64,000 bases of DNA from Isoetes taiwanensis. Its lineage: Eukaryota; Streptophyta; Lycopodiopsida; Isoetales; Isoetaceae. Numbering within the stretch: position 1 is the first letter of the stretch; each line of letters begins with the position of its first letter. Under the pieces are notes generated by a model. That model did not search any database. It was not told where the DNA came from and saw only the letters and a list, made by a program, of their open reading frames with translations. Shown here piece after piece: positions 14,061 through 45,264 of this stretch. The stretch covers positions 10,172,912 to 10,236,911 of the forward strand of contig JAJEKV010000020.1 in assembly GCA_021234155.1 (NCBI GenBank). The letters run 5' to 3'. A program made the position numbers and the translations under genes.

Positions 14061-14118
14061 GTGTGATGAAATGTTTTGAGGCGAAAACCATTAACCAATG
14101 TAGGTAATGGGGTGCCAT

Positions 14119-20494: not shown

Positions 20495-20537
20495 GATAGT
20501 TCCTTTGCTACTCCAGGGCTTTTCCCATTTTGCAGAT
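20495..20537 (-). pseudogene. Remainder of the mini-exon split by G1
   Basis: The right flank of G1 starts with the target duplication GATAG and continues as the body of a repeat exon (minus-strand LQNGKSPGVAKEL). The intact counterpart in copy B is 61,379-61,432, where no insertion is present. The left side of the split, near 9500-9544, is diverged from copy B. Confidence 0.75.
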
Positions 20538-21564: not shown

Positions 21565-21625
21565 GATCTCATTATGTTCGCGGGAGAATTAATTTCCCTC
21601 TTTTCTCCTTTCTTTTTTTTTTTTT

Positions 21626-22399: not shown

Positions 22400-22746
22400 G
22401 TGGTCAACCTAGCTACAGTATTTCGGTCAATACTGTAGCTACAGTAACAGTGCTACAGTGTTTTCAATGGTTTAATTGTTTAAGTTAATTGCTTGATCAA
22501 ATTTTAGACATTGAAAATATGATCATGAAGTACCTTATGAACTTATAAGATTATTACTAGATCATTTCTAGTTGAAGCATTATTTATACTTGTTTAATTG
22601 AACTTGGGATTAGTGACCATCTTTTGGCTCCCAAGTTTAAGGAAAAGTATGAATAAAGAAGTTGGAAACAAGTAGTTCTTCAAGTTGTTTTGCTAGACAT
22701 TGTTCCAAGTTAGAATTGTCAAGTGTTGAGTAGTCCTTTTCTAACA
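22400..22746 (+). repeat. Copia 5' LTR, right half only
   Basis: This matches the last ~350 bp of the 740-bp LTR at 46,809-47,548 and ends in the same TTTTCTAACA. The first ~390 bp are missing, together with the adjacent CACTA and MULE sequence. The first 70 bp differ most from the 3' LTR. Confidence 0.85.
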
Positions 22747-23640: not shown

Positions 23641-24162
23641 AACTTTGGAAAGGGAAGGGGAGGAGGAAGCTCAAACAGAGGTCGAGGAAGGAGTACAGAA
23701 AAAACATTTCTAGCCCGAGATGTTGAAAAAAAGTATAAAGCTGAGATTGGTGATTCAGATGAAGAGGTAACCAATGCTTTTGCTATTGTTCATGAAGAAT
23801 ATAGTTCTGACAATTCTGATCTATTTGTAGTTGATTCTGGAGCTGAAAGATCAGTTGTAAAGTCAACTGAGATGCTTAGAAATTTGTCTACTACAAATTC
23901 TAAGAAAATTCAAGTTGGAAATGGAGCTCTAACTGAGATTCAGGGCAAAGGATTATTACAACTTGAAGATTTGGAGGGGAATATTGTAAATATAGAAGAT
24001 GTGTTGTGTGTGCCAGTTATTATTAAGAATCTGATTTCTGTAAGTCAACTTGTGCTTATGAATGGAATTCTGAAATTTCGAGCAAAGAGGATGGGGAATT
24101 TATTTCAAATGCATGGTCTTATGGCAAGCAATGTAAACATAATTCAAGAAGCAGATTTAGAA
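23641..24162 (+). pseudogene. Copia protease region (fossil)
   Basis: The frame continues from the knuckles into an aspartic protease with the active-site block FVVDSGAERSVV near 23,824-23,859 (DSGA, as in copia proteases). It runs up to the pre-integrase boundary, where the YR retrotransposon is inserted. Confidence 0.85.
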
Positions 24163-24381
24163 TGCTATGGTTCTCTTCTTATATAGAAGAGAACCATCAT
24201 TCTGGGGAAAGGGACGTCTGTTTTGGCGTCATGTTATTTTGGACGTAGGAGTCATCTTTAGCCTGAGCTTTCTTTGGCCCATGATTTCTTTAGCTCTGTC
24301 TGCTATATATCCCTGTAGCTTCCAAGCAATTCTCATCGGCGTTTCCCTTGAGCTGAATTCTCTTTGTTCCAGTGTTTCCCT
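24163..24381 (+). repeat. YR retrotransposon A1 repeat
   Basis: A 219-bp direct repeat of A2 (43,157-43,369), starting TGCTATGG. Bases 24,167-24,197 form a near-perfect palindrome: 13-bp arms (ATGGTTCTCTTCT and its complement) around TATAT. Similarity to A2 stops abruptly at TTTCCCT. Confidence 0.9.
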
Positions 24382-25775
24382 ACAGCCTAGTCTTTCATTG
24401 GTCTTGCTCTGCTCTCGCTCGGAAGGATTGGGCTCGAATTGCCGGTTTTTTTAAAACATCCCGGTATTCTTGTGGTCCGATCCCCTAAAACTAATAGGCA
24501 TTGGCGCGTGCTTGGCTTGTTCTCGGGGTTTTCTTTGTCCTAATGCGTTACGTGTTGGGTTCGCGACCTTATGCTCCTCTCCGTCAGCTATTGCCCCCCC
24601 ATCCTTTTACTGCTTTCGGCCATGTTCGTCCACTCATCATCTGTCCTAATTTTTTACGATTTCGCCATGGTTTCTATTATCTGCTCTATTGGTTCTAGCT
24701 CGCCCTCTTCTATCCTTCATGATTCGGTTTTGCCATATTCCTCCTGCTTTTCTCATGATTCTGTTTTTTTCTGATTCTGCTCTTCTTTTTGGTGGCTTGG
24801 GGATGCTTACCTTCGACTTTGTCTCTTGCTTAGAAACCTTCCCATTCGGTTAAGGTACGTTCATCATTCACGGTTGGATTCGCTATGCTTTTGCCCATCT
24901 ATCCTGGTCCCGGCTGCTCTCTCCTCTCCTGTGGTATCTGGCCCATGGGTTTTTTATCTTGTTCCCTTCCAAGCAAGTGTTTCGTCCCCTCTCATCCCTC
25001 TGCAAACCCAAGTCCGAGTCTTCTCATGGCTGGAGTCCCCGGTTGGCTTTTTCCTCGCTCCTTCGGCCGCCCGGATCATGCCTGTATTTTTTCGGGGGGA
25101 TCTTAGGGTGAGTGTCCGGCCAGTCGGGTTGTCCCGGGTTCCCGGGTCCCTGTATCCCGTTGCCCCCCCTCCCTTTCTTCGTGTTTTCGTTTATTTTTTC
25201 TTAGATAGGTTTTTAAGTTTTGATTTTCTATGGTCTAGGGTTTCTTGTTTATGGTGTGGTTTTGTTTTTATCTTTTTTGTGATGTAAAGTAGTGAGGTTG
25301 GTTTTTTTAAGTTTTGATGGTGCATGTGTATTGTTAGGTAGGGTTTGGTCTTGGTTTTTCCAGTTATGTGTATGATCTCATGACCTTTTTTACATACGCA
25401 CTATAATACTTTACTATGGAAAACCTATGGCTCGCATGTATTTGCTCATATTCATGCATTGGCCTTTTGCGGCATCGACTTCCCCCTCCACTTGTCTCCT
25501 TATTCGAATTTGTTGTGCTAAGTGTCTTGCCTATTATGTTCTTAAGCCTATGTAGGGACAATTGCCATTTTGCTCGTTTTCTCATAACGATGCTGTGGGT
25601 TTTTGCCTAGATAGGGTCCGGTTTTGGGATTTGTTTCATTTCGTTTTTTCTTTTTCGCCATGGTTGTCATTGGTGTGTTTCTTTTGTTGGTTGTTTTGGT
25701 TTTTTCTTCCTATGTTGTTTTCCAATAAATTTTCTGGTTTGTTCATGTGGTTCTTACCCCCCTTTTCTTCTTTCA
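24382..25775 (+). other. YR retrotransposon leader, no clear gene
   Basis: A pyrimidine-rich 1.4-kb stretch with open frames of uneven composition but no recognisable domain. It ends in a CTTTCAG word just before the first gag-like frame, so it may act as an untranslated leader or an intron. Confidence 0.4.
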
Positions 25776-26276
25776 GTGACTATGTGTGCTCAATCTACTC
25801 TTCAGAGCTTTTCTCTGCCCACCACTGATACCGAACGTACCCCCCCTCCTTTACCTACTGTCATACCGCCCAATGTCCCTGTTCCATCTGACCCAGCACT
25901 TTTCCTACCTTTTCCATTTGAGGGCCATGACCCTAATCTTTGCGTTGCTTTCAACCTCAATCATTTGTTTTGGTCCCTTGATCGGCTGCCCCCGACATCT
26001 TCCTCTTCTTTGACATTTATGTCGGATTGCCTTTGGTTCTCCTCTTATCTGGATGATGCCATCGACCAGGTGGATTTTGGCGTTGATTATTACCGCGACC
26101 CCATCAGCTCGGAACTAACTTTTGAGCTGGAGGTCCCTAATATGGTGTATTTTCGTCTAGGGGATTTGGTTGTTGCTTTGCATTGGTGGGGCCGAAGTGG
26201 CCACGTGCTGTTTAGGTTCCAGTTTGCAGCTGTTCTACGTGATTGCATGCTACGTTTCTCCTACGCCCGGGGTTAG
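25776..26276 (+). pseudogene. YR retrotransposon first gag-like frame (fossil)
   Basis: An open segment of about 160 codons with a proline-rich N-terminus and hydrophobic/aromatic blocks (NLNHLFWSLDRLPP, DDAIDQVDFGVDYYRD). No family is recognisable. Position ahead of the zinc-knuckle frame suggests a structural (Gag-like) protein. Confidence 0.45.
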
Positions 26277-26615
26277 AGATCTGAGTTGCCTCGTTTTGCT
26301 CCATTTTCGGCTCTGTATCCTATCTTTCCTTGGCGTTTCTTCACCGACCCCTCTTGCACTCTTGTCTCCGGTTCAGGCCCGGATGTGATGGCACCCTGAT
26401 ACCCACATAGAGAAGCTCCATTGTAGCGACTGGTCCTCTGGCCCTGTTTTAGCCATAAAGTTGCCATTTTTGGTTTGCACCTCGGTGCTTTTGTTATTGT
26501 TTGTGTTGGAAATAAAAAATTATGCAAATTTTATCCCTTGGTCTTCTCGGTTCCCATTTTTCTGATTTCTTGTTGGTTCTAAGGGTTTTTTGTTTGGGAT
26601 GGTGATGCCAACCGG

Positions 26616-27758
26616 ATGCAGGTTGCACTCGGTCAGATGCCCCTTATCGTCTGCGGGGGTTGCGGGCGGCTACGTCGGGAAAGCGTATTGCTACTCAGGC
26701 ACCCGCGGGCATCGGGCGGGCTCGTTCTTCGTCCGCAGCTCCTCCACCTGTTCTCCCAAGTACAGCTGCTCCCTTGGGTTCTTTGGGCAACTTGGGCCCC
26801 TCTTTCCTCCTCGAATCCATTTGGGGGTGCCTTTACAACCTCAACATTTTTTTCCACACCCCCGTTGAATATTCCCGCACCTCCAGTCCCACCTTTTGTT
26901 CCCTCTTCGGCTATGCCCACTGCTACTCCTGCTCCTCCTCCCCCACCCGTTGGTGTTCCCCCCATGGCCACTCCCGCTCATGCAACTTCGAATACGACAC
27001 CTCTGCCATTGTTTTCTTTTCCACCACCTGCCCCATCAGTGGCGCCTCCCTCCCAATATGAACTCTTATTGCCTCAAGTCCTTCAATCCCTGCAATTACA
27101 AATGGCCCAAATTAATGATTTGCAGACATCAGCCCAGTCTTCCATTCACGAGGCTGTCGAATCACTGCGGGAGGAAGTACGAGAGCGGGCGGCTAGGACC
27201 TTGCCCTTTTTCAAACGGGATTCTTCACGGCACCAGTATGAGTTTTTGGCTGCTACGGAAGACCGATTTCGGGAGTTGTATGCTCGCCTGTTCTCTCTCT
27301 CTCTGGCGGTGCCCGACTCGGTCTTGAAACTCATTGAGGAGGGTAAGATGGCAACTCAACAGCGTATGAAATTTCTTTTGATTGCTGATCGTGAAGGGTA
27401 CGATGTTGCTTTTGACTTTGCTGATCATTCAGGCTTGTCTTTGTTCGCTGATGACTCCCGCCGCTTGAAATTAGCCCACCAAGGCCGCCTTGAGCGTCGC
27501 ACTAATTCTGCCACAAAAGCTCCAAATACCTCTTTTTCTTCTCACCCAACTGCTCCTGGTGCCCCCGCTGTTCCTCTTTCCCGGGGTACCCCTCGCTTGT
27601 TTTGCACATTCTGTGGCCGTAATAACCATAGAATTGAGACATGTTTTGCTCGTGCGGCAGCATCGAACACTCCTTTGGCACTCCCTCCTGCTCCTTCCCT
27701 CCCACCAGTGCCCCAGTTTCCCATCACCCCTCAATATTTCCCTCGTCCTCAGATGTGA
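26616..27758 (+). pseudogene. YR retrotransposon gag-like frame with CCHC knuckle (fossil)
   Basis: A 380-codon open frame. It has a Pro/Ala-rich region, then a predicted helical part around codons 145-200 (QYELLLPQVLQSLQLQMAQI...), and a zinc knuckle CTFCGRNNHRIETC (C-x2-C-x4-H-x4-C) at about 27,604-27,645, with a proline-rich tail. Size, knuckle and position upstream of reverse transcriptase fit the ORF1/Gag of DIRS-class elements. Confidence 0.65.
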
Positions 27759-27819
27759 GCATTTGGTTGATGGAGTTAAAATCAGACGGCTATGACCGTA
27801 CTGTTGATTATTTTTTGTG

Positions 27820-28800
27820 AATGGGATACATACTACAATTATGTTTTTTTGAAACCATGTTTTTCCTTTAAAGTCGTGAAGGCTTGTTAAAACACATGCA
27901 TCTAGGAGTGAATTGGATATATACAACAATTATGTTTTTTGAAACCATGTTTTTTCCTTTAAAGTTGTGATGGCTTGTTACTACATCTTTTCAAATTCTC
28001 GTTGAATTGTTGGATCTAGGTACTTGGTTGTATCGGCTTGGATGCATTGCACTTAGAATTAGAGGTTAGCCTGGTTTGGGTCAGTCGAGTTGACAGAATT
28101 CTCTAGTGTTTTTTTCACTACTCTAGACTCTTACGCTGGCTAGCTTCTTGACCTTAGGAATTCCTTTATTTCTAATTTCCATTTTGTTGTCATAGTATGC
28201 TTTGTTGCGACTCTGTTTTGCTGTGTTTTCCCACGTATACATTGCTTTGGTTGCTAGGTTGTCATTGCATGTTTTTTCCCCTTTTCTCGCATATGCATCT
28301 CCCCTTCCTTGCAACGTTAGTTGGTCGATCATTTAGGGATGTAAGGTTAGGTTTTTTCCATTTCAACAATCGTCTTATGTTTTGGACCATGGTCTCTTTA
28401 AGGTTGTGATTATCTTGCCTGCTTCGTTTCTCAAGTTCTTGTTGGTTGTTGGATCTGAGTACTTGGTTGTATCGATTTGGTTGTTAGCTTTAGATTATAG
28501 ATTACCATTCTTGGGTCAGTCTGGGTGATGGAGTGCTCTAGTGTTTGTTTTTGCTACACGAGTTACCGTCTTTAGGATAGCTAGTTTCTTGGCGTAAGTG
28601 TTCCTTGATTTCTAGCTTCCTTCTTGTCGTCATTTTGCATCTCTGTCTACGGTGGTTTCCCATGCTCGCATTGTTTTGGCTTGCTAGGTTGTTGTAAGTA
28701 AGGTTTGACCCCCCTTTTTTTCCTCCCCGCATGTGCATATTCCCTTCTTTGCAAAGGCAGTTGGATGGTTGATTAATAAATGTCAGGTTAGGTTGTTGTT
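27820..28800 (+). repeat. Tandem ~440-bp repeat inside the YR retrotransposon
   Basis: Two diverged direct units run from about 27,905 and 28,345, sharing blocks such as GTACTTGGTTGTATCG, CTCTAGTGTTT and GGTTGCTAGGTTGT. An 80-bp part of the unit is also duplicated just upstream (about 27,828-27,900). No coding potential is seen. The spacer lies between the Gag-like frame and the reverse transcriptase. Confidence 0.7.
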
Positions 28801-29189
28801 CCGGGTTTTTTGGCACAAGTTGTTCAAGTTATCTGGGTTAAGCACATATCTCTCTTTGACTCTCTCTCTCTCCAAACTTTGGGTCTCTGGGCTCGGGTTT
28901 GTTCTGTATATTTATTGGCATATCGGCAAACGCTTTTAGTTGATTGGGCTTAGGCCGTTCCCTTCTGACTCATTTTTTTACCATAGTGGATCATGGTAGC
29001 ACTTTTCATGTTTTGTTATTGGGCATTCTCGTTATATACCTCCCAGTAATGCATCTCCCCTTCTGGTTTCGAAACTCTAGTCATTGTTATAGGCAAAGCA
29101 TTCTTCCCCTATTAAATATGTAGTATAGGCATCTTAGAGATGTTGCAGAGTTTTTTCTTTCAGTGATATCTTGTTGTTCTTATATGATT

Positions 29190-30050
29190 TGTTGCTATTT
29201 CAGATTGCACTCCGTTTTCCTCTTGCATTCCTCATCTCGGCATTGATCCTATCGTAGCCGACTCTATTGCATCATCTACCAGCGTCTTCAATCGCCTCTT
29301 GTCCGCTTTGTCTTTTTGGCAATCCTTCTGTTCCTCCCAGCAGGTTCTCAGCTGGATCCAGTTTGGTTATCGTTTGCCTTGGCTTACTCATTCCCCTGCC
29401 CAACCCTTTTTTTGCAAAGAATCATTCGTCCTTGTTTACCCAACTCGATTTTGCTCGTTCTGCCGTCTCTGACCTCCTTCGGACCGGTGCCGCCTCCCTT
29501 GTGCCTTCTTGTCCCTTCTTACGTTTCCCCGGGTTGGGGTGGTCCCTAAAGGTCAAGGAAAGTGGCGTCTTATCTTAGATTTTGCCGGGTCTTGAACTCC
29601 TTTTTATCTGTTCCCCCTTTTAAGCTATGAATCATTAGACCTACTCTCCCATCTTTGCAAACACACGCCGATTTCCTTTTTGCAATAGACTTGAAATCAC
29701 GGTTACCATCATGTCTCCATATGGCCTCCTCACCCGTTCTTTCCTTGGTTTTTGTTGGGCCGGTCAGTTTTTTGTCTTCAATGTTTTCCCCTTTGGACTC
29801 GCCTCTGCTCCATTTGTGTTCATCAAACTCATTGGCGGTTGGTCTTGGTGGCGTCTTTCGGGGGTATCGATGTTCCCCATATGTTGATGATATCACATTT
29901 TACGTGTCAATCTTCGCGAATCCCTTGAGGTCCAGTTATTTTTTGACTTACAACAAGCGGTTTTTTCTTCTACTTTGGAAAAAGTATCGGTTTCGCATTT
30001 CTCATCGCACTGTCTTCTTAGGTTTCATCGTCGATGTTCAGCATGGTTTG
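29190..30050 (+). pseudogene. YR retrotransposon reverse transcriptase, first part (fossil)
   Basis: Reverse-transcriptase landmarks of the DIRS type appear in order: FAIDLKS near 29,680, the catalytic block PYVDDITFYVS near 29,875-29,910, and FLGFIVDVQHGL near 30,018-30,050. The gypsy element G2 is inserted directly after it. An acceptor-like CAG precedes the region near 29,205. The region is interrupted. Confidence 0.75.
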
Positions 30051-30629
30051 TGTTTGGGGGTGCAGGTTCGGGGAACTCACGGAAGACAGCCCTTTGTGAG
30101 GACCCGTGGATCTAACGGGAGAGTCAAGGGGACTATGTCCTTGGGATTTGCAGAAGAGAAGAAAACAGAACAAATGAGAGAAAAATGATAAGCTTCCTTG
30201 ATATCAATGAACATACATGAGCTCTCGCAATAGAGAGAAAACTGAAAGGAGACAAGACTCAAAACTCATCTAAAAAACTCATGTGCTAGCTCTACTCATA
30301 TATATAGTACAATGGCCTTTGGCCCAATATAGACACTCGGTGATCTCGGTGCCCGACTCACGGAAGGGAGGCCGATTTGGGAGAATGTTGGCGGTGCCTC
30401 TTGAAGTGCCTAGAATCACTTGGCCAGCGAGGCGGTGACGCGGGCCGTCACTTGTCTGCCCAGCGCCTCTTGTTGGCTTGACCACATGCTTTGACTACTT
30501 GCGTGGTCTGCTGCGGCTGTCTTCTTTGGAGCCTTTGATGGCTGACCGTGGCTGACTGAGGATCCTTGAGCTTGACCTGGTGCATTTGTATGCATGAATA
30601 GTCTGTGCCGGGAGGCCGCGGGACTAACA
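30051..30629 (-). repeat. G2 LTR (3' LTR of the element)
   Basis: This LTR is closely similar to 40,394-40,958 and to both G1 LTRs. It begins TGTTTGGGGG on the plus strand and ends GGGACTAACA; plus-strand CTCCCCCACC next to it is the complement of a polypurine tract. Confidence 0.88.
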
Positions 30630-33600
30630 CTCCCCCACCAAACGACACTCGAGTGAAGAAAGGAGGAAGTGTTTTAGGCGGGAAGCCATGCAATGCGAAA
30701 GTGATCCTCACGGGGGTGAGGGCGGGCACCATATGGTACTGGCTAATGAGATCTGGCGTGTTTGAAGAAGCGGGAGGAGGAGTGTTTTGGCCAAAAGGCG
30801 GGATCTGCATCAATAAAGCGAGGCGTACCATGTCTTCAAAGGCGGCGACATGGGCGTCACGAAGAAATGTAGCGACATTCCATGAGAGGAGGGAACTGGA
30901 GGCCAAAGGCACCGACTGCGGCATTCAGGTGCGGTGAAAAATGGGGCCTTTTGCCGATTTAAGGAGCTTAGCAAAATGCATTTGAGGCCAGCACAAAAAC
31001 CTGCTTGAAGATGGTGAAGGATCGAGGTGAGGTGGTGGCGATGCAAGAAGGTGTCAAGACCATGAAGCGCATCCGCCGTCGTTTGCCAACCACGCTCATT
31101 AGCAATGTAGATCAATTCGTGGTGGTATCGGTGGCACCTTCTTCCCAATGTGGCCGAACAAAAGCGTGGATCCCCAGGAGATCCGTCGAGATCTGAGGTG
31201 GAGTCCATCGGCATGACCATCCATGACCTTGGTCCAAAAAAGGGAAGCCGAAGTCGGGGAACACAGGGGCGTGGAGATGCGCCCGAGGGAAGCATAGGGA
31301 GAAGGAACCATGCCCGTGGGCGTTGGGTTCTGAGCGGTCTCCCTGAATTATTGACAAGATCCGGATCAAGAGCTTGACACCAGCGATCCCAAAGAAAAGA
31401 GAGTTGAGAGTTGGCGGGAGGGCTATCCCATCGTGGGGGCAGATCTTGCTATCAACGAGCTTCGTAATTGATTGTATCCGTGAGAGTCTTTGCATATAAA
31501 TTTGTGCATAGGGAAGATCCTCGGGATGTCCTAGATACTTCCTTATACGTTGCGGCCTTCCGCTTACCCGAGAGAGATAAATGATTGGCAAGCTTCGGGC
31601 ATGTACTCGATGAAGAGTTTGGATGCGGCGGGGATCCATAAGATATGGATTGTTATCTGAAGCACCCATTGCCGCAGTGGGGTCACCGAAGAAAGCTGGC
31701 GTGGCCCATTTCGAAGTGTTTCTGCTGAACAACTCGGAAGGTGATAAAGTAAGCCGGATGAACAACTGATAAAGGTGCACAGTGTATGAGATCAAAGACC
31801 ACAAGGGCCAGACACAACCCTTTGTCTTCAATGGGAGTTACGGCCAAATCCGAAGAAAAATCTGCCTTTGCTGGGGGAATATCCGCGGTCCATCGGCGCG
31901 CATGCCGCCGAAAGGAAGAGGTGGCGGCGAGCAACCACATAATCGTGATAGCAGGAAGGGCTGGGAAGTCAAAAGGCATTACGGTTAAGAATGGCGGTAT
32001 GGCCGTCAAGTTTTTTTGCTTGAGCCTCATATTGGTGAATAACTTCTTTGTGGCTGTTGTTCAAGATCCCGTATCCGGTTGTCCCGTTCTAGCGGCCGTG
32101 GCGTGACTGGTCCGGACCGTTTTCGAGAAGTGTTGACTTGGGAGGAGGATTTCCCGGAGTATTGAGGCGGCTGCGGCAATCTCAGCGTCATCCGGTATCT
32201 TACGTTTTTGCACCTCGTAAGCTGATCTTGAAGAGGTGGTGAGAGGTTTGTGTGAAAGCTGAGCCATCAAGGAGGCAACTTGGCGTCCCGTTCGTAAGGT
32301 TTTGAACTTGAGTGCTGAAATTTTCACAAAGTTCGAGTACAAGGCGTTGAGCTTAGCAATATCTGCGTCCTTGGTTTTCGGGAGAGGCGGCTTTGGACTT
32401 GTTGTGCTCCAATAAATCTGAATTCTGATTGATTGGGCTGAGCACTATTGATCTGCAAGTTGGGCTGACTTGATCTTGTGCACTTTTGAGATCTGTATGA
32501 GCACGTAAGAGAGCCGTGCTTGTCTTGAAGTTTGGCCTCAAAGTTGCAAGCAGGCGTGGCGGCAGAAGTCTGGTGTCTTGCATCGAGAGGCCTCTAGTGC
32601 GGTTGAACCCGCTCATAAAAGCGTCTTGGGATTCTTGTAACTTGGAGGCAGCAGCAGGCATCCCACGTCGACATACAACAAGCAGCCGAGGGTGGTGTGG
32701 TGGTGGAGCGGCTGTTGCCTGGTTTGTGATATTTAGAAAGATAGTGTGGCCCGGATGGTGTAGCGGAGGAGGAGAGCGGTGACATGGGTGTGCGGGCTTT
32801 GGACATGACCAGGGAAGAGCAGGCGTGAAGTGCAGCTCGGTTAGTTGGTGTGGAAGGGGGCCGGAGTGGAATTATGAGAATTTTGTGGTGTGGGAGGGAA
32901 GTAATGGCCGGATGAGGGCTTGAAAGTGGCCTCCCGCGAAACTTGAGAGAAATGGAAGTGGCACCGGCGGTCCATTTCTTGGAGAAAACGATAGAACATC
33001 ATTTGGGGCCAATCTATGTGGTGGTTGGAGTGTGTAGCGGTGAGGACCAGGTTATAGAAAGGCTTATTGATATGGGTGTTCTTGATAGAATACCCAAGGA
33101 ACTTGGCATACGAAATTTAACAAAAGGTTTCGTGAGGCTTGTCGATATTGGTCGGGGCGATGGACATTGGCATGATAAGGAGGTGCACCAAACTGTGACA
33201 TGAGAGATCTGTATGGCAGACCATGATAAACAAAGGGGTGTGCAAGGGAATATGAAATACCTCAGAAATCAAATGTTGAGTCCAGCGAAATGGTGGTGCC
33301 ATCGACCCGCGGTGGTGTAATCTTGCGCGCTGTTCGCGATATTGGCGATGAAGCTGCGTCAAGCTGATCGGGGATTTGGAGCGGAAGTTCCATTTGAGAG
33401 AATTCGTAAAGCTTGTGTCGTTCAGCGACTTCTTTATTTGGGCCAACAAAGGGCTTCCGCGGAAAGTGGGCATCAAGAAGGATCTGAGATGCAAAAGAGC
33501 CTGATCCTTGGGAGCGGTAGCAGAAGTGTAAAAATCTTGGGGCAGCCATGGTAGCGATTCTGAAAGCGAAAGTGATTCAAAGCGGGGAGGGATCGAAAGT

Positions 33601-34520
33601 CGAACGCGGAGGACAAAACCTGAAGAAACGAAAAAGATTTTTAGGGCGCTAACCGGAGGCTTAAGAGGTATGAATAAGTGGCCGAGCCGTTGATGGTGTC
33701 AGGTGTCGAAAAGATGCCAAGAAGTGTAGTGAGACACAAAAAATTTGGCTAAGTCCCAAAAAACGTAAAGGGAGAAGCAATGAGCGGTGAGGATGAGAGG
33801 CGTGAAGAAGGATCGGATGTGGTGATTGTGTGAAAAGGACACATTAATGTTTGACCGTGAAAAGAAGGAATTGCATTCAATGGCGAACCTTTCGAAGTGG
33901 GATATCATTAAAGGAATGTGTCGGAAGGTACCATGGCTAGATATCTGCGGCGGGAGAAAAGATTCTCATTGAAAGCTTGACCTTGCATTGCAAACCGTTA
34001 GCGATTTGTGTGATTGGTCCGCGTCGACAAGGAGTTCCTCGGCCATTGGCTATATAAGGCGAACCGGAATAAAGGCATCCGATGAAATTCCGGCATGGCT
34101 CGCTTTGCTGGTTTGAGCGAGGGCGCACTATGCCCTGAACTGTCGAGGGAGTGGATTACACCGCAAGATGAATTGCGGACCTCGGGCGCTGCCACAACCG
34201 TAAGGCATTGAATGGGCGGCCGGTGTGCCGGGATGGCTGAACATCCGGCCGAACCAGCGGGATGGAGGTGGTTACGCACCTTCAGCGGGATCTCGCCGGA
34301 ACCTCTACCATCTCCCTCCCATCACCTCTGCTCGACTTAGGGGTAGAGGGTTTTTCCTCTTAGGACTTAGTAGATAGGGCTCCGAGCCCGTTTTTGTATA
34401 TAGGGCAGTGCCCATAAGCGGAAATAGCTGGGTTGCCCACATTTGTAAAAAATCTCCACTATAATAGAATATGCCTTTCTAGTCTTTTTACGTGGTGTTT
34501 GCTTCTTGAAGCGGTATTAT
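30630..34520 (-). other. G2 accessory region between pol and 3' LTR
   Basis: This is the counterpart of 10,123-14,060 in G1. Minus-strand segments around 33,117-33,494 include SEVFHIPLHTPLFIM and APTNIDKPHETF, also found in G1 at about 12,640-12,850. No integrase, RT or chromodomain similarity is visible. It could be an extra structural or envelope-like ORF as in some Athila/Tat elements, but I cannot name the protein. Confidence 0.45.
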
Positions 34521-34559
34521 TTTGTTGATTTTTCGCTACGTGTGATGAAATGCTTTGAG

Positions 34560-35560
34560 GCGAAAACCATTAACCAATGTAGGTAATGGAGTGCCATCTA
34601 ACTCTCGCCGGTTGGAAGGCGCTTGGTCTAACCACTTGAACAATTTGATAAAGGGCCAAACCAACGAAACTTGAGTTTACCCGGAAAAATTTTTGTACAC
34701 GGAATCATAAAGAAGAACCAAATCGCCTTCTTTGAATGTTTTTGTCTTGAGGGCGTTTGTCATGTAAAGATTTTGTTGTTGTCCATGAAGAACACGAATA
34801 TAAGCATCCTTCGAAGTTCATCCAACTGTTCTAATTGATAGACCCTTTCTTTGAGTCTGGCGAGGTGGATTATGAGCGTGAGCCGGTTGAAAGCGGAGTG
34901 TTGAAGGATGTATTCAAAGCGGCATGAAGCTTCGACCATAAACCAATTTAAAAGGAGTGTGACCGGTAGCAATCTTGAAACAAGTATTGTAGGCCCAAAG
35001 AAACGAGGGAAGTTTTTACGCCTTGTCGGGCGGGAAGCGTCACAAATTTTCTTGAGAATGGTGACGAAGATTTTTGTTGGTGCTACGCCAAACCATTACC
35101 TTGAGGATAGTAAAGGTGTGCTCTTGTGATGATGTATCGGAGATAATCCGTCGACTCCTTGATAGTATGGTTGATGAAATGGACACCCGGTCACTCCACG
35201 ACCAGCTCGTGGGGCGGCGAATGCGTGATAATTTGTTGATAGAGGACCCGTATGCGCTTGCTGCGGTGTTATGCCGGAAGTGCACAAGCTTCCGCCCATT
35301 TGGTGGCGTAGTCGGTGAGAACCGAATGTATCGCACGGTGTGTGCAGCAGGAGGATCTATATGTCCCACAAAGTCCATTCCCCATTTCTTTGAAGGAAGT
35401 GGCGTGGCGGCGTCAAGGGAAGAGCTTGCCCGCGGGCGTGGGCCCGTCCGGTAAAGGTAAGCGTCACCGCGTCTTGGCGTGGGCGTGAGCATCTTTGAAG
35501 AGTGGGCCAATAATACCCAATGAGAAGGATTTTTGCGTGCCGTGGTGTCACCATGAAAAT
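34560..35560 (-). pseudogene. G2 integrase region (fossil)
   Basis: The minus-strand core start KWGMDFVGHIDPP lies near 35,335-35,390. A zinc-binding-like segment lies upstream, around 35,440-35,620, and the C-terminal part runs down to about 34,600. The layout mirrors G1. Confidence 0.75.
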
Positions 35561-35899
35561 GACCACCACCTAGCCCTTGATGAGCTTCTTGAACAATATC
35601 TGGAACTTCATGAGGTAGAACACAGCCGTCGAAGGATGGTGTCCTTACCTTTTTTTGTAGAGATGTCACGCAGCCATGGTGTAGTCTGCGGACCTCGGAG
35701 AAATTGATAGCGGCAGGATTGTCGCTAAGCGGAAGAAAGCGTCTCGTCTTACGGTGGAAGAGCACCTGTGAGGAGGTACTGCTGAAAGTCATGGAACCAA
35801 TGTGGTGTTGGGTTACTAAAAAGAAACGCATCGAGGAAAGCGTCGAGACTCGGTTGAGGATCACCTGTGTGGATCGTGAAAAGATAATCCGGGGCGACA

Positions 35900-37410
35900 T
35901 GAGATTTGCCGGCCTTATGAGCGATTTCAAAAGGAGCAAATTCTTGGAGAAGAAGGACCCAACGAGCAATGCGGCCGTGGGCGTGGACTTGTTGATCAAA
36001 TAGAGGAGTGCTTGGTGGTCCACAAAGAGCGGTTGGCTTAAAAGGTAATGACGGAGCGTTGGACCTGAGAAAATGAGACCCAAAGCGCTACGCTATGAAA
36101 GTGGCAAAATAGTTGCGCTCAGCGGATTGAGTTTTCGGCTGGTAGCGATTTGGTTTGTCGATTTGCGCATCATATTCTTGAGAAAAGAACAAGCCAATAG
36201 CAAGCCGCAGAGACATCTACATGAGCGTGAAAGGGCTTGTCCCATTGAGGAGGAACAAGAACCGGTGCACGAAAAGCAAAAGCTTCAAGTTTGTTGGAAG
36301 CGACATCCGCTGGGGATTCCAAGCCCGGGTGGATTAGATCACCCGTGAGTTTATGAATGGGATCCGCAATGGCTGCTAGTCGGTATGAAGGTGGAGTAAT
36401 AATTGACCTTACCAGGAAAGAGCGTGTCTCCTTGATATTGGCTGGTGCTTGAGCCTTGAGCACCAAGCCCGATTTTGGCGGGGATGCGTGGTGATACACG
36501 CTGTGACAACATGGCCTAACAGAACACGGTGGCCTTAAAGGTGCATTTCTCGGGATTGAGACTAATGCGGACTCATCACATTTCGGAAGAGCGAGTTCCA
36601 ATTTATCAAATGGTCAGCCATGGGCGAAGGCGAGAGAAGTCATCTTGAAAAATTTGCAAGAAGGGATTTTCCTTCATGAAATCATGAAAATGGCGAGAGC
36701 ATGATGCGTTGAAACGTTGATGGAGAGTTTGATAATCCAAAGGAACCACCTTGTAGGCAAAAGTGCCCCGCGAGGTGGTGAAAGTGGTCTTGAGTTGATC
36801 AGATTCTTTGATTGAGATCTGATTGTAGCGGAAAAACCATCCATGAAGGAGTACATCTCATGTCCAGCCACCTCTTCGAACACGGTGCGTGAAGGGAAGT
36901 GGAAAATGATCCGCTCCGTGGCGATTGAGTTTCCGATAGTCCCACCACGGGCGGATCTTACCATTGTGTTTAAGGGCATGGCGATGGGGGCTCACCCATT
37001 GAGAATGTTTGACCTCATAGATCAAACCTGCAGCAAGGAGTTTGTCAATTTCCTTGGGCGATCCGCGGTAATTAGGGTTGGCCGATGCTTGTCGTTGCTA
37101 CTGCTGGTCGTGCATCGATTTGGTAGGAATGGTGAGTTCCCCAAGCTTTGTTGATTCCCCGAAGATCTACGTAACTCGGTGAAAATGTGTTTGAATTTTG
37201 TGAAGCGGCTTGACGGCCCCGATATAAAGGCGGAAGATTTGGCAACAATGGGGACTGGGTTGATTGTTGCCCGTCCACAATCTCGACTTACGGGAGTCGA
37301 ATATGGGGTATTACTTGGTATCACGGACAATGTGTGCGGGGAGGTTGGAGCATAGCAGGATCGTGGCACTGCGTGGTGAAAAAGAGGGGTTGCTTTCGGT
37401 TTCATTGGCG
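35900..37410 (-). pseudogene. G2 reverse transcriptase and RNase H region (fossil)
   Basis: RT landmarks (YSFMDGFSA, KNLINSRPLSPPRG) lie near 36,760-36,860. An RNase H segment with FVDHQALLYLINKSTPTAAL lies near 35,950-36,030. Interrupted in several places. Confidence 0.75.
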
Positions 37411-37929
37411 AGAGGTTGCTTCATGGGCGTGTACATCGCGGGGAGTTGCGGGGAGGTTCAACATCACGAAAAGTGATCAACACATTGGATTCGATTGCAA
37501 GGAGCGGGTGAGGTCAAGCAAAGCAGCCACGGCCTGGTCACGATCAAAGTCATTTCTCCCCAAGGATCGACATATTCGAGGGGTAGGATGGCGGCCGGAC
37601 TTCGCGGTGGAGCTTGAACTTGATAAATATTGAGCTTCGAGGAATGCATCTAATGCGAGAGAGAGGGTTCGCATTGTCAGCGAAATGATCACTTTGTTTG
37701 CAAGTCCATGGTGGCATTGAGATGACCATCGGTGATGACTAAGCGGTCCGTGGCCCGGTAATGGATACTCTTTGCTGGCGGAGAAAAGGTCTGCCGACCA
37801 ACATTTCATAGTCACGGATCTTCGCCCGGCTTTCCAAACTCAAATTCCATGGGGGCGGGAGATCACCGATGTTGATGTGAAGAAGAGGTGTGGCCTTGAG
37901 GTCAGCGTGATATGGCCATTAGCCAACTT

Positions 37930-39700
37930 GATGTCATATGGGCACGCGAAAGAGTTGTGTGATGCCAATTTGTTTTGCGGAGTTTATCCGTGATGAGATT
38001 TCGCTACCTCCATCTATTTGAACATGGTTGACTTCTTTGATTACCCACCGTGGCATGGGACCGTGGGTGTAGTAGGCCACGGCCCCAACTAAAATAGTTG
38101 GGAGTGGTAATGGTCCTTGAGAGCAGATGAGTTTCAAAATGGTGGCCAAGCTTAAAGGAATTTGATCTTGGCTAGCTCCTCTTGGAGTTCTAGAGGCACA
38201 TGAGAAAAAAGGATCTGCTTTGGTTCCCAGTGCGGGAGTGCGTGGTAGTGAAGCGGCAACTTCTTTGAGTAAGTCAACCTCGGCAAAGAATATTGGGATC
38301 TGGTGAGGCGTGGAGGTTGAGATGTGGAAGGTGTATCTTGTCTTTGTTGAGCTCGGTGGTGGCATGAACATTTGCCAATGTGCGGCCTTGGCCCGGCTTG
38401 CATGAGTTCAAAATGCTTTGGCGAACTTTTGGCATGACATGTGGCATGAGCTTCTCAAGTCGAGTGCAAAAGTGAACCTTTTTTCGTCCTCATGAGGAAT
38501 GGTGTCAAGCGCAAAGGGCAGGTTGCGTGCCATTGAATAATGGTCAAGGGGCGTGATGCCTTGGTCTGGCGTGAAACTAAACCAACCCAATTTTGGCAAT
38601 GGAGGATGAAGTGCCTGAAAAATTTCCTCTTGTGCTTGTTGATCCGGTGAGGTTGATTTCTTTGGAGCTGGTTGATAAGCGTGATTCTTTGCGCTCTTGG
38701 TGGCTTCTTAAGAAGCTGGTCTCGGGCCTTGTTTGCCATTAGCAATCGAGTTGGTAAGCCGTGAGGCGGGACCGATGTGGTCGATTTGTGCCGGGAAGCC
38801 GCACGACGAACTTGTGGAAGTTGAGGACACGTAGGTGGTGGTATGACCCCATTCTTGGCGGTGATAACACTTTGAGCTTTAGAAGGATCGAAGGAGGGCG
38901 TGGGTTGGATCCCGTTGTTGCTCTGACTGGCTTGATAGAGTTGAGTGGGTTGCTGAAGTGGTGGCTGGCGATAGATGCGATTATTCTTTGAGGTGTGGTT
39001 TGCACTTGATAAACCATTTTGTTTGCGAAGCGGTGTGGGATGAGTGCGAGTGCACTCTTTGGGTGGCATGATTGCACATGTTGCATCGCTTGCAATGAGG
39101 CCCGGGCCATTGGTGGAGTTGCACTCATTTGCCAAATGGCCTTGGTATTTGCAAATATGGCACCAGATTTTTGGCTACTGTGGATTAGCGTGTTGAGGCT
39201 GAAACAGTCGTTTGTGGAACCATGGCGGGTGGAATGAGCGGGAGCTCTTGAAGAGCCACGCCTCGGGAGGAAACATTGGCTGAGTGATTGACAAGGTCGA
39301 TAGCCTGCTCCAAAGTCTTGGGACGGTATTGATCATGAGTCGAATAGTTGGAGGGAAGTCCTTGGAGAAACCAGACCAAAATCTGGCTCGTGTGGGGTAC
39401 TCCTTGAGCTTACTTAGCGAGAATGTGAAGTCGATCCATAAAATCCGGGGGAGACTCGTGGGCTCTTGTTGAAGTTCATTGAGTTGCTTGAGATGAAGTT
39501 GATCATCATCCGTGGTCCCATAATGAGACGAAAAAAGCGGTTCTCATTTCTCACCAGTCTTGTTTCCAATGGCTTTTGTTGGACATGAGCCATTGATGAG
39601 GAGAGCCACGCAGGTGGTGGAAAAAGATGTGGAATTTCAAGTTGAGGTTGACATGACCATTTAGGACAGCTAGAGCCTCAAATTCTTCCATGTGGGCGAG
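37930..39700 (-). pseudogene. G2 gag and protease region (fossil)
   Basis: The protease active-site block VQIDGGSE (DGGS) lies near 37,990-38,020 on the minus strand. A zinc-knuckle-like region lies near 39,120-39,170 and gag-like sequence (KTLEQAIDLVNHSA) near 39,275-39,320. Interrupted. Confidence 0.7.
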
Positions 39701-40393
39701 CTTTTGGTCCTAACGGTTTGCCTTTCGTGTTGCCAAAGGTGGGATAAGTCGGTTCGAGTCCGAAAGGTAGATGTGAAAGCCGGGCTGGACAGAACAAGAT
39801 AGTGAGGATATTGAGGTTGAGTTGGATGTGGCATGGTGCCCGAAGGACCCTCGGCGATGAAGGGTGACTGCGTTGAGAAACCTGAAGTAGCCGAGCATTG
39901 GTTTTGAGATCCGTAAGGTTAAAAAGGAAGGGCAAATGGGGGAAACGTAGGGAAAGGATATTCCCGGTAGGCGCAAAAGGAGACGGTGGATATCCGCCCA
40001 CCCCGGGAGATGATGGTTGTGAAGGGAAGAGCGTATGGCCAAGAATGATGGATGTAGGCATGTTCAGGGGTATGAAAGTACGGTTGAGAAGGTTGAGCCC
40101 GATAAGGCTCCTCGATAGTGATGAGGGGACCGAGGTTGTGAGCAATGTTTGCACGCTTTTGGGGCGGGAACCGGACGACAGACAGACAGGGGTGGGTGGC
40201 GCCGACCGAGCCCCTAGACCGAAGATGGCCTCCCCTATGTCATAAGCAGGCATCCATACATGTCGAACGTTCGACGCCGATGGCGCCAAGCGAGAGGCCG
40301 CTCGAGAAAGGAGTTCTTGGCGTGAAATTTCTAGGGACAGACATGGCATGTAAGAAAGTAGGATGGAATGGACGCACTCCGAACGGGCGCCGG

Positions 40394-40958
40394 TGTTTGG
40401 GGGTCCGGGTTCGGAACTCGAAGATGACCCCCGCGGAGGACCCGTGGATCTAACAGAGAGTCGGGGGACTATGTCACGCGGGATTTGCAAGAAGAGAAGA
40501 AAAGTAACAAATGAGAGAAAAATGATAAGCTTCCTTGATATCAATGAACATACATGAGCTCTAATAGAGAGAAAAAATCGAAGGAGACAAGACTCAAAAC
40601 TCATCTAAAAACTCGTGTGCTAGCTCTACTCATATATATAGTACAATGGCCTTTGGCCCAATATAAACACTCGGCCCGATCTCGGTGCCGACTCACGGAA
40701 GGAGGCCTGATTCTGAGGAATGTTGGCGGTGCCTCTTGAAGTGCACCTAGAATCTTGGCCCGGCCTGCCGGCGGTGGCGAGGAACGTCACTTGTCCGGCG
40801 GCCTCTTGTTGTTGACCCGCGGGCTTTGATTTGCGTGGTACTTTGCTTGGTCTTCTGGCGAGCCTTTGATGGCTGACGTGGCTGGCCCGAGGATCCTTGA
40901 GCTTGACCTGGTGCATTTGTATGCATGAATAGTCTGTACCGGGAGGCCGGGACTAACG
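40394..40958 (-). repeat. G2 LTR (5' LTR of the element)
   Basis: Direct copy of 30,051-30,629. It contains TATATATAG near 40,632-40,640 and is preceded on the plus strand by a primer-site complement (GGGCGCCGG). Confidence 0.88.
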
Positions 40959-40963
40959 GTTTG

Positions 40964-41900
40964 TTCGCATCTCGCCTCTAAAAAAGCGCTGTATCTCTTT
41001 GTTCCGACTTGCTTGCTGCACCTATGGTCTCTGCTCGCTTGATTGCTCGTTTCCTCGGTTTCATTCAGTCCTTGCGTCTAGTTTTTGGCCACCTGTGTGC
41101 TGTTTTAACCTCAGGCCTTCACTTGGATCTTCGCTGCTCTGAGCTTTGGGACACTCCTTTTCTGCTTTCCCCCCTCTCACGTCTTGAACTGTGTCTTTGG
41201 CAGACTATTGTGTTCAGGTTTGACCGTTGTCCTCTTTGGCCCCCTCTCCTCACTAAAGTCACCCTCGGGTTTGATGCTAGCGATGAGGGTTGGGGTGGTT
41301 GGTTGTCTATTCCGGGTACACCTGTGCTCTCTTTTCATGGCCTTTTTACCGCATCTGAGTGTCTTCAGTCCTCGACATGGCGTGAGTTGTGCCGCCCTGC
41401 TCCAATTGTTGCAAACATTTTGCTAGCCTCCTCTTCAACTCCATTGTAGTTGCTCGTGGTGATAATCGAATAATGTCGGCGTTTTTATTGCAAAAAGGGT
41501 GGTTCCTCGTCTCCGTTCTCCATCCGCTTTTTAATCGAAGCTTTTCATTTTCTGTTATCACCATAGGATTCAACTCGAGCCGTTGTGGGTTCCCGTTTAG
41601 AAAATGAGTGGGCTGACTATTTGTCTAAGATTTGTAAGTTTGATGAGTTCTCCCCTTTCCTCACGAGGCTTTTAGCTTGATTGAGTCTCGATGGGGCCCT
41701 CATCATGTCGACCCGCTTTGCTAGTCCGTCTAATGCTTTACTTCCGTCTTCAATACCAAGGATGCTTACCCCCGAATTCCCGATGCTTTTTCCTACAATT
41801 GGCTTGTTCAATAATTTTCTGCTTTCCTCCACGCCTCCTTAGTCCTATTTGTCTTGCACCATGCTTCGCCTTTGCCATGCTGGCTTAACTTTGGTTGTTT
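40964..41900 (+). pseudogene. YR retrotransposon RNase H region (fossil)
   Basis: After G2 the YR element resumes. Segments carry FDASDEGWGGWL (about 41,270-41,305), QSSTWREL, EWADYLSK (41,606-41,629) and WGPHHVD (41,692-41,712). The pair of an AD-LSK block and a WGPH-VD block is the recognised signature of the DIRS-class RNase H region, not of gypsy or copia. Interrupted. Confidence 0.8.
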
Positions 41901-42299
41901 TTTCATGGCCTTACGCCCTTGGGCGTTGGTGGCTTCTAACCACGAACTCGGCAGCCATTTGTGATAGATGCTTTGTTTTTCATGAGTTTTCTCGCGTTGC
42001 TTCCGTCGGTCTCGCGTCTTGCGGTGAAAAGCGACATGTGGCATTATTTGCTCTATTTGTGTATTTGAATAAGGTTGGTGATATGTTTTGGTTCTAATTA
42101 TATGTTTATGTGGTGTGTGTTCGGATGTCTTACCGCATTTTTCCATGATATCGCTTTTTTTGTAGCTCCTATCCTCACCTCCCGTTCTTCAATCCCGCTA
42201 CTTCTACCCTTCTTGCTTATATACCTCCGTTTGGCGGGCGATTTTGGTCTTGGTGCTTGTCCCATGGTGCCCCTTTCCTTCTGCTTCATCCATCCATGT

Positions 42300-43085
42300 C
42301 GCTGACCTTCTTCGGCTTCTTACGTGTCATCTACCGCTAAGCGCCTGCGCCTCGATGGGTGGTGCTTCTCGCCATCTCATTTTTTCTGACTGATTAATGC
42401 CCGCGTCTCGGGTGTTGGGTCCCTTTATCCTCATTGGTCCGTAATCGCCCCGGCTTGGGTCCACACCCGTCCACGGTTGCCCCTCCACGCTCGCTCACGT
42501 CCCGTCTTGTGATGTTGTCCTTTGCCCGACCCATGCGGAATGGCGTGACTTGATGAAGGCCTCTTTAGTTACCTTATGTTTTCTTTGGCTTTCTCCATAT
42601 TTCCGAGGCCCTTCATTTTAAATTGGCGGCACGACCTTTTTCCAGATCATGTCTGCGTGGCAATCCGAAGTCTAAATGTGACCAGGTTGGGGCGGCCAGA
42701 AGTCTTGATTGCCGCGTCGGCCGGTTCGGTCTCTTGCCTGTCCATCTCTTGCGGCGCTTGCTTTTTCGCTTGCTCATTCCATGTCATTGATCCTCCCGAG
42801 GGTGGAACCTTGTTTGATCCTCTTTGTCCTCTTAATCGGTGCTTTGTCTTACTCCACCGCGTGCATGGTGGTTTGAGTGCTAACGCCGCGCCGGTTTAGT
42901 TCCCGATCTTTTTGGCACTCATCGCGGGCATCGTGGGGGGCCACGGGCGGCCTCTCTTGACTGCTGCGGTTTTGTATGCGAGGTGGTTAGCTCTCTCGGC
43001 CATTGGCATTCTCGCTTCTTCTCATGCTCGCTTCACGGCCCTACCCGGTGTTGAAGAGCATCTCAGCGTCTCTCGCAATCTCGGC
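42300..43085 (+). pseudogene. YR retrotransposon tyrosine-recombinase-like region (fossil)
   Basis: One frame from about 42,907 reads H-R-G-H-R-G-G (near 42,919-42,939) and, some 25 residues later, LGHWHS (42,995-43,012). This fits the HxxR and LGHW catalytic blocks of tyrosine recombinases in DIRS and Crypton elements. The expected final tyrosine would lie just before repeat B1, but I cannot place it confidently. Upstream sequence from 42,300 is likely the N-terminal part but has no clear motif. Confidence 0.6.
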
Positions 43086-43120
43086 CGTGATAGTTGGAGG
43101 TAGGTTCCTCTTTATGTCTG

Positions 43121-43151
43121 GGTTATTGTTGTTTTGCAAAGGACCTTTCCC
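43121..43151 (+). repeat. YR retrotransposon B1 repeat
   Basis: 31 bp (GGTTATTGTTGTTTTGCAAA then GGACCTTTCCC) identical to B2 at 43,961-43,991. It is followed by TACAA and then directly by A2. Confidence 0.92.
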
Positions 43152-43156
43152 TACAA

Positions 43157-43369
43157 TGCTATGGTTCTCTTCTTATATAGAAGAGAACCATCATTCTGGG
43201 AAAGGGCGTCATTTTAGCGTCATGCTATTTTGGGCGTAGGAGTCATCTTTGCCTGAGCTTTCTTTGGCCCATGATTTCTTTTCTTTCATGCGCTATATAT
43301 CCTCAGCTTCCAAGCAATTCTCATCGGCGTTTCCCTTGAGCTGAATTCTCTTTGTTCCAGTGTTTCCCT
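43157..43369 (+). repeat. YR retrotransposon A2 repeat
   Basis: Direct repeat of A1, carrying the same 31-bp palindrome at 43,161-43,191. The ~590 bp from its end to B2 have no counterpart next to A1 or B1. Confidence 0.9.
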
Positions 43370-43960
43370 CCCTCCCTCCTCTATGGCGGATCGCGTGGTT
43401 TTTGTTCACTTGGTTTTGGTTGGTTTCTGTTTATCCCGCCTCGTGGGGGCTGATTCTCCCCTTCTCTTTTATCTTGTTGAGAATTTGGTGGCCTCCCCAA
43501 TGTCAGGTAGCACTTGTCGCTGCGGAGGGCACCTCGGGGTTGACCCCCGGGGTCGGGCCTAGTCTATCTTACTCTCACTCTCTCTCGGCGTAGCTATGCG
43601 CTTCCGAGTGATCCATTTTCTCTCGTTTTTCCATTCATTCTTTTTTCTTTTGTCATACGTTTGTTGATGCTTGGCCCGTCAAGCTCCTAACTCTTTGTCT
43701 TGTCTTAACTTTCCATGAGGTCTGTTGTGTGTAGTAGCTGGCCGGTCCTGGCGGTTCCCGAGCGGTCTCTACGTGTTTGGGGGTCGGGTTTTGGGGTCCG
43801 AAGTATTCGATGGGGTGGCGGAAATGATGCTAGTTGGTGGTGTCGTCAAAGCAGTTTGGTGGTCACGTATGCTTCGAGAAGGAGCTTTTGATGCTTAGCT
43901 TGGGGGTGTTTTTGGCTCCCTCGGATGATTCTCTGATCTTTATTGTTATTCACTCATATC
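43370..43960 (+). other. Unique 590-bp spacer between A2 and B2
   Basis: In classic split-direct-repeat elements the A2 and B2 copies are adjacent. Here a 590-bp segment separates them. It has no recognisable gene and no clear similarity to the rest of the element. Confidence 0.45.
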
Positions 43961-43991
43961 GGTTATTGTTGTTTTGCAAAGGACCTTTCCC
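43961..43991 (+). repeat. YR retrotransposon B2 repeat (right end of element)
   Basis: Identical to B1. The copia sequence resumes at TAGAAT immediately after it. Confidence 0.9.
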
Positions 43992-45240: not shown

Positions 45241-45264
45241 AAAATGAGCTAATACCGTAAACTT

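Follow-up and report, generated by a model that had tools for sequence, protein, structure and literature searches.

A PAT-like tyrosine-recombinase retrotransposon family with a conserved foldable repeat junction in the Isoetes taiwanensis assembly

Tyrosine-recombinase (YR) retrotransposons have been reported in algae, animals and fungi. The echinoderm Pat1-like form (SpPat1) has a Gag zinc knuckle, a reverse transcriptase (RT), a methyltransferase (MT) domain, a YR in direct orientation, split direct repeats and an internal junction after the YR (PMC4157794). The PAT elements Kangaroo and Toc, from Volvox and other algae, also have split direct repeats; Kangaroo has an inverted YR, and a Gag zinc finger is recorded for neither (PMC4157794). 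DIRS1-like elements carry an MT domain and inverted terminal repeats; their circular junction is 3 bp long and reads AAT in several of them, they leave target DNA unduplicated, and Ngaro elements are described as having no MT domain (PMC3266345). Here we describe a 64,000-nucleotide stretch of DNA from the lycophyte Isoetes taiwanensis (contig JAJEKV010000020.1, positions 10,172,912 to 10,236,911 of the forward strand), referred to as the window. The window holds a PAT-like YR retrotransposon of the DIRS order, confirming what a first-pass annotation had observed from the letters.

The repeats in the window run A1, internal region, B1A2, spacer and B2, as that annotation had read them. In a comparison of the window with itself, A1 (24158-24381) matched A2 (43152-43369) at 91.6% identity over 227 columns (E 3e-83), and B1 and B2 agreed at 36 of 37 positions (Table 1). 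Since AAT is common to the B1/A2 overlap and to both element ends, the body of the element is 24164-43994, or 19,831 bp. The earlier span of 24163..43991 is therefore corrected to this body plus an AAT on each side. The earlier annotation had also missed a nested long terminal repeat (LTR) retrotransposon at 30051-40958, which is foreign to the YR element. A better-preserved copy elsewhere in the genome, L009, is continuous at this position, so the nested element is what separates RT from RNase H in the window. Once the nested element and one of the two GTTTG repeats flanking it are subtracted, the body measures 8,918 bp, alongside 9,107 bp in L009 and 8,930 bp in L015. The A2-B2 spacer had been noticed correctly (591 bp), but it is no departure from the textbook form, as had been supposed: all 9 complete copies among 16 loci fetched, and all four divergent families fetched, have one, roughly 0.4-1.1 kb long. 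The repeated sequence ahead of RT is real as well (27957-28193 and 28396-28633, 73% alike), and comparable repeats occupy the gag-pol interval of L009 and L015.

The element lies within a Ty1/copia retrotransposon, which is recognized by Pfam through Pol_BBD (1.3e-14, 23446-24183) and RVT_2 (1.9e-74, 45253-46788). Proteins related to this host element showed about 38-45% identity among the 120 matches listed of 2920, and those with an identified organism came mostly from flowering plants, with one from a coral. The left flank, a single AAT and the right flank together translate in the copia frame as EADLELWHNRLAH. In two of the three other copia copies fetched (L040 and L041), the site is uninterrupted and AAT stands once at the exact point, with no target duplication; the insertion was precise at the AAT core. 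The third copy (L039), on the same scaffold beyond the window, is interrupted at the same point and continues as GCTATGG, and so appears to carry the YR element too. Just beyond the window, at G000:C1019:10238607-10249347, there is an apparent duplicate of the copia element with its YR insertion. The distance from A1 to YR is about 10 kb in that duplicate against 19 kb in the window, which suggests that the nested LTR element is lacking there.

The same core stands at most of the insertions compared. We counted 14 independent A1 starts, excluding L014 (a tandem junction), L018 (a duplicate of L017) and L019 (a mutated start). In 12 of the 14 5' flanks A precedes AT (p 1.3e-4 against the flank background), and a purine occupies position -3 in every one (p 1.7e-4), a pattern noticed after looking. 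One pair of copies, L016 followed by L014, stands head to tail with a single junction of B and A (BA junction) in common, the outcome expected if a circle integrates at an existing junction.

The pol and YR frames of the window copy are broken and Pfam matched none of the four window pieces scanned, to which the YR piece did not belong; the domain evidence was drawn from better-preserved copies. Some of the frame breaks may be artefacts of nanopore assembly noise in repeats. The motifs of the first-pass annotation could nevertheless be located: YVDD of the RT at 29880, EWADYLSK at 41606 in the RNase H region, WGPHHVD at 41692 in the methyltransferase-like domain and the recombinase-like HRGHRGG block from 42920, all in broken frames. 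In L009 (scaffold C1040) the frames are open from stop to stop for Gag-1 (233 aa), Gag-2 (394 aa), Pol (665 aa) and YR (327 aa). As judged by eye, its Gag-2 bears the CCHC zinc knuckle CTFCGRNNHRIETC just as the window copy does, although the zinc-knuckle model was unmatched in the Pfam scan of the L009 frames and window pieces. The L009 Pol matched RVT_1 above the cut-off (7.6e-19) and left the copia RT model unmatched. It also aligned end to end with proteins at 34-43% identity (8 examined), all of which match as well the model of the Dam methyltransferase that DIRS/PAT elements carry. Altogether, Dam was matched at E <=0.5 by 9 of the 9 members of the pol alignment, L009 and all eight relatives, the best at 1e-8. 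A structural model of the methyltransferase segment (predicted local distance difference test, pLDDT, 85) had a cap-specific adenosine methyltransferase as its top fold match at E 1.3e-3, with none at <=1e-3. The YR of L035 matched Phage_integrase (PF00589) above the cut-off (4.1e-9, 36.9 bits), and that of L038 matched it at 3.9e-3. Searched by sequence, the L009 YR had no match in PDB; its predicted model (pLDDT 88) had Cre as the best PDB match (E 1.4e-10). Residues R166, H275, R278 and Y310 are kept in at least 90% of 35 aligned YRs, and H298 was identified by eye. Between its split repeats the family thus carries a CCHC-bearing gag, an RT with RNase H, a methyltransferase-like domain and finally a YR.

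These results bear directly on whether the locus could be an ordinary gypsy or copia LTR retrotransposon whose odd look comes from nesting. An LTR element does split the YR element and a copia element does surround it, and the RT and RNase H match Ty3 in PDB. However, the YR follows pol in the copies, no LTR-type integrase was found by Pfam in the four L009 frames, there is no target duplication, and split repeats recur in four further families. We rejected this origin and regard it as highly improbable.

How large is the population to which the PAT-like element belongs? An A1 query of the genome gave at least 41 matches (40 of 926 candidates scored). With the YR protein as query at least 124 matches were obtained, 44-100% identical (of 2016 candidates, 122 scored), some of them two pieces of one locus and many without a stop. 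Among 16 A1 loci fetched, 9 hold the complete A1..B1A2..B2 set, whereas another 6 are truncated or nested or could not be resolved in the 10 kb examined; L017 and L018 represent one insertion duplicated. Ordinary LTRs were seen in none of the 16. The complete order is also present in each of the four divergent families fetched, whose YR identities are 68, 60, 55 and 44% and whose A1/A2 identities are 100, 98.6, 99.2 and 98.4%, respectively, which makes a recent origin probable for some copies. Not every one of these is complete: gag is matched in part in L035 and L037 and not at all in L038. Repeated B sequence was found in 6 of 10 YR loci taken with 1.5-kb flanks (L025-L029 and L034) and not in L030-L033. 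In L036, B2 ends in 13 bp that are the same as the A1 start and slightly unlike B1 (1786; 9440-9452, element orientation).

Part of this diverse, multi-copy population lacks the enzymes. Six of the 16 A1 loci (L012, L017, L018, L021, L023 and L024, with flanks shared by L017 and L018) form a non-autonomous family with the same ends, a leader of about 1.9 kb and the first ~50 Pol residues, followed by about 5 kb of filler unrelated to the autonomous element. The filler is 86-97% alike between loci, the remainder of Pol and the YR are unmatched, and A1 and A2 are 91-99% identical within a copy. Presumably this family is mobilized by enzymes from other elements. L021 has no frame of >=180 aa.

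With these copies in hand, the element can be placed among the known systems. It has an RT and RNase H of gypsy-related type (L009), a YR in place of a DDE integrase (L009, L035 and L038), an MT domain according to the homology of relatives and the fold match, split direct repeats in the window, the 9 loci and the four divergent families, and a short core free of target duplication at the two copia sites. The first-pass annotation had spoken of a PAT/Ngaro type, of which the PAT-like half stands. The Ngaro order is likewise A1..B1A2..B2, but Ngaro elements are reported without an MT domain (PMC3266345), which is present here in 8 of 8 relatives by homology and by fold; we accordingly rejected a Ngaro filing, which is quite unlikely. 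The Gag zinc knuckle, the orientation of the YR and the position of the internal junction fit the echinoderm Pat1-like form, a likeness drawn from the description of SpPat1 (PMC4157794) and spanning an echinoderm and a land-plant host. Kangaroo and Toc share the split direct repeats and the green lineage, but are unlike the Isoetes element in the Gag zinc finger and, for Kangaroo, in YR orientation. The MT domain, the 3-bp core and the lack of target duplication are also shared with DIRS1-like elements, whose repeats are inverted; here they are direct, and the sole inversion is a short, hidden one linking B to A. At 22000-46000 inverted pairs of >=60 nt were absent, and a DIRS1-like filing was rejected. 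In ALOG-type DIRS1 elements an ALOG domain lies in the N-terminus of the YR; ALOG is otherwise, retroelement copies aside, a streptophyte family (PMC3537659). The genome gave seven ALOG matches, two of them nearly full-length, none coinciding with the 124 YR matches, and PF04852 was absent from the YRs of L009, L035 and L038, so an ALOG-type YR was rejected too.

Among the matches listed, the closest named relatives in pol were Klebsormidium proteins. The pol search returned 169 matches (7991 candidates scored); the organisms identified among the 120 listed were Klebsormidium nitens (44% identity over 91%) and Closterium (39%). The YR search returned 62 matches, the best at 37%, and the one organism identified was the oyster Saccostrea cucullata, at 30%. 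One Klebsormidium protein (P0004, KFL_000940010, partial) contains RT, MT and YR matches together, with Dam at 1.2e-4. In K. nitens P0004 and P0075 the domains follow the same order as in Isoetes (RT, RNase H, MT, then YR), and these are the closest named rows in both the pol and the YR trees. Pol and YR share one frame in P0004 and lie in separate frames in L009; the comparison with the alga rests on proteins. In the pol tree, six rows from the Isoetes genome and the Klebsormidium group fell on one side with support 97/96 (81/76 for the six rows alone), and in the YR tree six Isoetes-genome rows grouped with K. nitens at 94/88. Neither tree is rooted, several of the rows are odd in composition or sit on long branches, and the rows include no named PAT, DIRS or Ngaro references; a pol tree rooted on Ty3 was discarded as unreliable, its Ty3 branch being too long (7.0). 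The simplest reading of these trees would be vertical descent within streptophytes.

An algal affinity raises the question of contamination by a water-borne alga or another organism. According to the Isoetes genome paper, the plants had not been grown axenically and the removal of contaminant contigs was necessary (PMC8566536). Nonetheless, the copies are spread over many scaffolds, several of 15-53 Mb, and the window copy interrupts a copia element that is found uninterrupted elsewhere in the genome. Scaffolds C1018 and C996 carry ALOG genes as well as YR copies, and pol identity to the nearest named alga among the matches listed is no more than 44%. We rejected contamination on these grounds and see hardly any chance of it. 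We hold with high confidence that the element in the window is an old member of a family of PAT-like YR retrotransposons resident in a streptophyte genome, most likely that of the lycophyte Isoetes taiwanensis. ALOG genes in the genome and transposons of plant type near the element agree with a land-plant host.

Several observations weigh against this conclusion. In the window itself neither pol nor YR is open. In L009 the RNase H match (RT_RNaseH_2, 3.9e-4) and the YR match (Phage_integrase, 4.7e-5, 23.7 bits against a curated 27.1) are under the curated cut-offs, and the Dam match of L009 alone is weak (E 0.2, also under cut-off). L013 has no detected B2. L035, with its A1/A2 identity of 100% and open YR frame, is not complete, since pol residues 352-628 (RNase H and MT) are unmatched. 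The right end of L038 consists of two B copies and its core is not placed. A1 starts off the core in L020 (G) and L024 (T), besides the mutated L019. Support was 93/90 in an earlier pol tree with two Isoetes rows, where the data did not reject placing them with Closterium (p 0.187). Neither a circle nor element RNA nor a transposition event was seen. Even so, the interpretation of the first-pass annotation is supported: none of the three findings it had named as fatal (an RT inside gypsy or copia, a missing YR profile match, ordinary LTRs in other copies) was obtained.

Beyond classification, the B1A2 junction folds into a long hairpin. A has a palindrome at its left end, ATGGTTCTCTTCT-TATAT-AGAAGAGAACCAT, whose arms differ in L035, L036, L037 (8 bp only) and L038. 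Past this palindrome A holds a stretch complementary to B's end, which lets the whole of B1A2 fold: B's end, together with the AAT core, makes the outer stem, and the inner stem is the palindrome. AAT lies inside the outer stem in four families. Folded as DNA, the window junction reached -22.6 kcal/mol (z -7.0, equalled by 0 of 200 shuffles). All six sequences folded, from five families, gave z between -4.7 and -7.9, again with 0 of 200 shuffles equal; the core of L038 is not placed among them. We also ranked the junction against the remainder of each of 12 copies, using 90-nt windows (992 per copy) and RNA energies. It came first in 8 and third in 3 (L016, L036 and L038); in L009 it was 18th, and a hairpin in the tail scored best. 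Seven more YR loci were folded, and in all but L031 the best-scoring structure was immediately 3' of the YR. Covariation was quantified on seven sequences of four families, rows that are few and partly related; L038, whose ends are not placed to the base, and L031-L033 were left out. Both sides had changed in 12 of 27 pairs. Pairing cells amounted to 92.3%, compared with 80.4% in shuffles (reached by 0 of 500) and 41-54% after sliding. The signal from further pair types was weaker (reached by 39 of 500 shuffles).

In the four aligned families the outer stem, AAT included, is formed by B's end and part of A, and can therefore exist only where B touches A, namely at the internal B1A2 and at a circle junction. 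In the attC sites of integrons an outer stem, adjacent exchange bases, an inner stem and a loop follow one another, and the tyrosine recombinase uses the folded strand. The BA junction resembles attC in its stem layout, whereas action on a folded strand is established for attC and only proposed here. We read the BA junction as a putative foldable, attC-like recombination site. The mechanism we propose would start with reverse transcription of element RNA. Sequence of the joined ends, missing from the RNA termini, would come from the internal B1A2; a circle closed at a BA junction would form, and the YR would exchange strands within AAT between circle and target. The conserved BA hairpin may present the core to the recombinase or guide end joining. 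The stronger form of this proposal, in which the YR acts on a hairpin of the joined ends (possibly in single-stranded cDNA) and the structure has been under selection across several element families in a land plant, with an unbroken streptophyte lineage of such elements since the Klebsormidium split, is tentative, and we consider it rather doubtful.

Alternatively, the hairpin may serve the RNA or its reverse transcription (packaging, priming or strand transfer), or the sequence may be a double-stranded dyad bound by the YR and not a folded single-strand site. Compensatory changes fit an RNA hairpin, a folded DNA strand and a double-stranded palindrome alike. The inner stem alone also occurs in A1, where the RNA is expected to have its 5' end, and RNA folds from the start of A gave z from -1.8 to -8.4 in five families. 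By contrast, the outer stem with the AAT core needs B beside A in the four aligned families, which limits it to the internal B1A2 or a circle junction. We give this alternative roughly even chances. As to precedent, the words 'hairpin' and 'palindrome' are absent from the main texts of PMC6681497, PMC3266345 and PMC3783388; no wider search for such a feature was made.

The window holds other repeats as well. The LTRs of the nested element (30050-30628 and 40393-40957) are 579 and 565 bp long and 85% identical, and its frames lie on the minus strand. A second LTR retrotransposon, at approximately 9636-20494, is 77-83% identical to it. The copia LTRs are about 99% alike past their first 60 bp (by eye), A1 and A2 91% and the nested LTRs 85%. 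This order of divergence runs opposite to the nesting, with the outermost element the most alike and the innermost the least, and hence cannot be used to date the nest. Nanopore assembly noise in repeats may have contributed to the reversed order. A duplicated unit with internal repeats of about 0.9 kb recurs at 92-98% identity (5125-9519 with 56941-61384, and 20494-22399 with 61389-63249); it is cut by an LTR element, and the match of its first copy stops at the copia LTR start. A tnp2 (CACTA-type) transposase was identified at 48058-49245 (3e-37), and an open reading frame (ORF) with a SWIM zinc finger at 21994-22452 (4e-6), which we take to derive from a Mutator-like element.

Table 1. Coordinates of the YR element, its host copia element and its nested insertion in the window
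Feature	Position	Strand	Remarks
5' LTR of the Ty1/copia element hosting the YR insertion	22399..22746	+	3' LTR 47198-47548; pair 93.5%
AAT core, 3 bp, left copy	24161..24163	.	other copy 43995-43997
Split direct repeat A1	24161..24381	+	palindrome near left end
Gag-1 region, ORF 221 aa	25611..26276	+	within 93.6% DNA match to L009 (ORF 233 aa there)
Gag-2 ORF, 391 aa	26583..27758	+	C-terminal CCHC zinc knuckle CTFCGRNNHRIETC; motif by eye
Imperfect direct repeat between gag and pol	27957..28633	+	halves 27957-28193 / 28396-28633, 73%
N-terminal pol/RT, frames broken	28600..30050	+	YVDD at 29880; 92% DNA match to L009
Nested LTR retrotransposon, 10,908 bp	30051..40958	-	LTR pair 85%; target duplication GTTTG 30046-30050 and 40959-40963
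RT end and RNase H, frames broken	40964..41690	+	93% DNA match to L009
Adenine-methyltransferase-like domain (WGPHHVD...)	41691..42060	+	weak Dam match, relatives, fold
Tyrosine recombinase, frames broken	42085..43090	+	86% DNA match to L009 YR
Split direct repeat B1	43121..43157	+	AAT core at its end
B1A2 junction able to fold (arm of B, AAT core, palindrome of A, returning arm)	43142..43207	+	DNA fold and covariation
Split direct repeat A2	43155..43369	+	self-comparison with A1
Unique A2-B2 spacer (tail), 591 bp	43370..43960	+	76-90% to other copies; one 35-bp piece 97%
Split direct repeat B2, right end of element	43961..43997	+	36/37 to B1, E 5e-11

A 2022 review of land-plant transposable elements omits DIRS as known only from green algae (PMC9033089), and two Arabidopsis species have no such elements in a published table (PMC4157794). 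On the other hand, a fern repeat table records 361 DIRS fragments totalling 45 kb (PMC6890710), and a 2024 review on plants and a database of plant repeats include DIRS among their classes; these entries weigh against a claim to the first such element in land plants. Our literature search, whose coverage excluded most subscription journals, found no DIRS or PAT element described in a lycophyte. ALOG regulators have been proposed to derive from DIRS-type recombinases, complete ALOG elements not being known in streptophytes at that time (PMC3537659). The Isoetes family is not of the ALOG type, and so provides a DIRS-order background for the origin of ALOG, not its missing ancestor. A large and diverse lycophyte population, partly with near-identical repeats, changes the map of DIRS elements in land plants. 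What is new is the conserved foldable B1A2 junction, with AAT in its stem and compensatory changes between families. The conserved hairpin of the joined ends may be the insertion site, and the foldable junction offers a concrete, testable handle on how such elements join their ends and insert.

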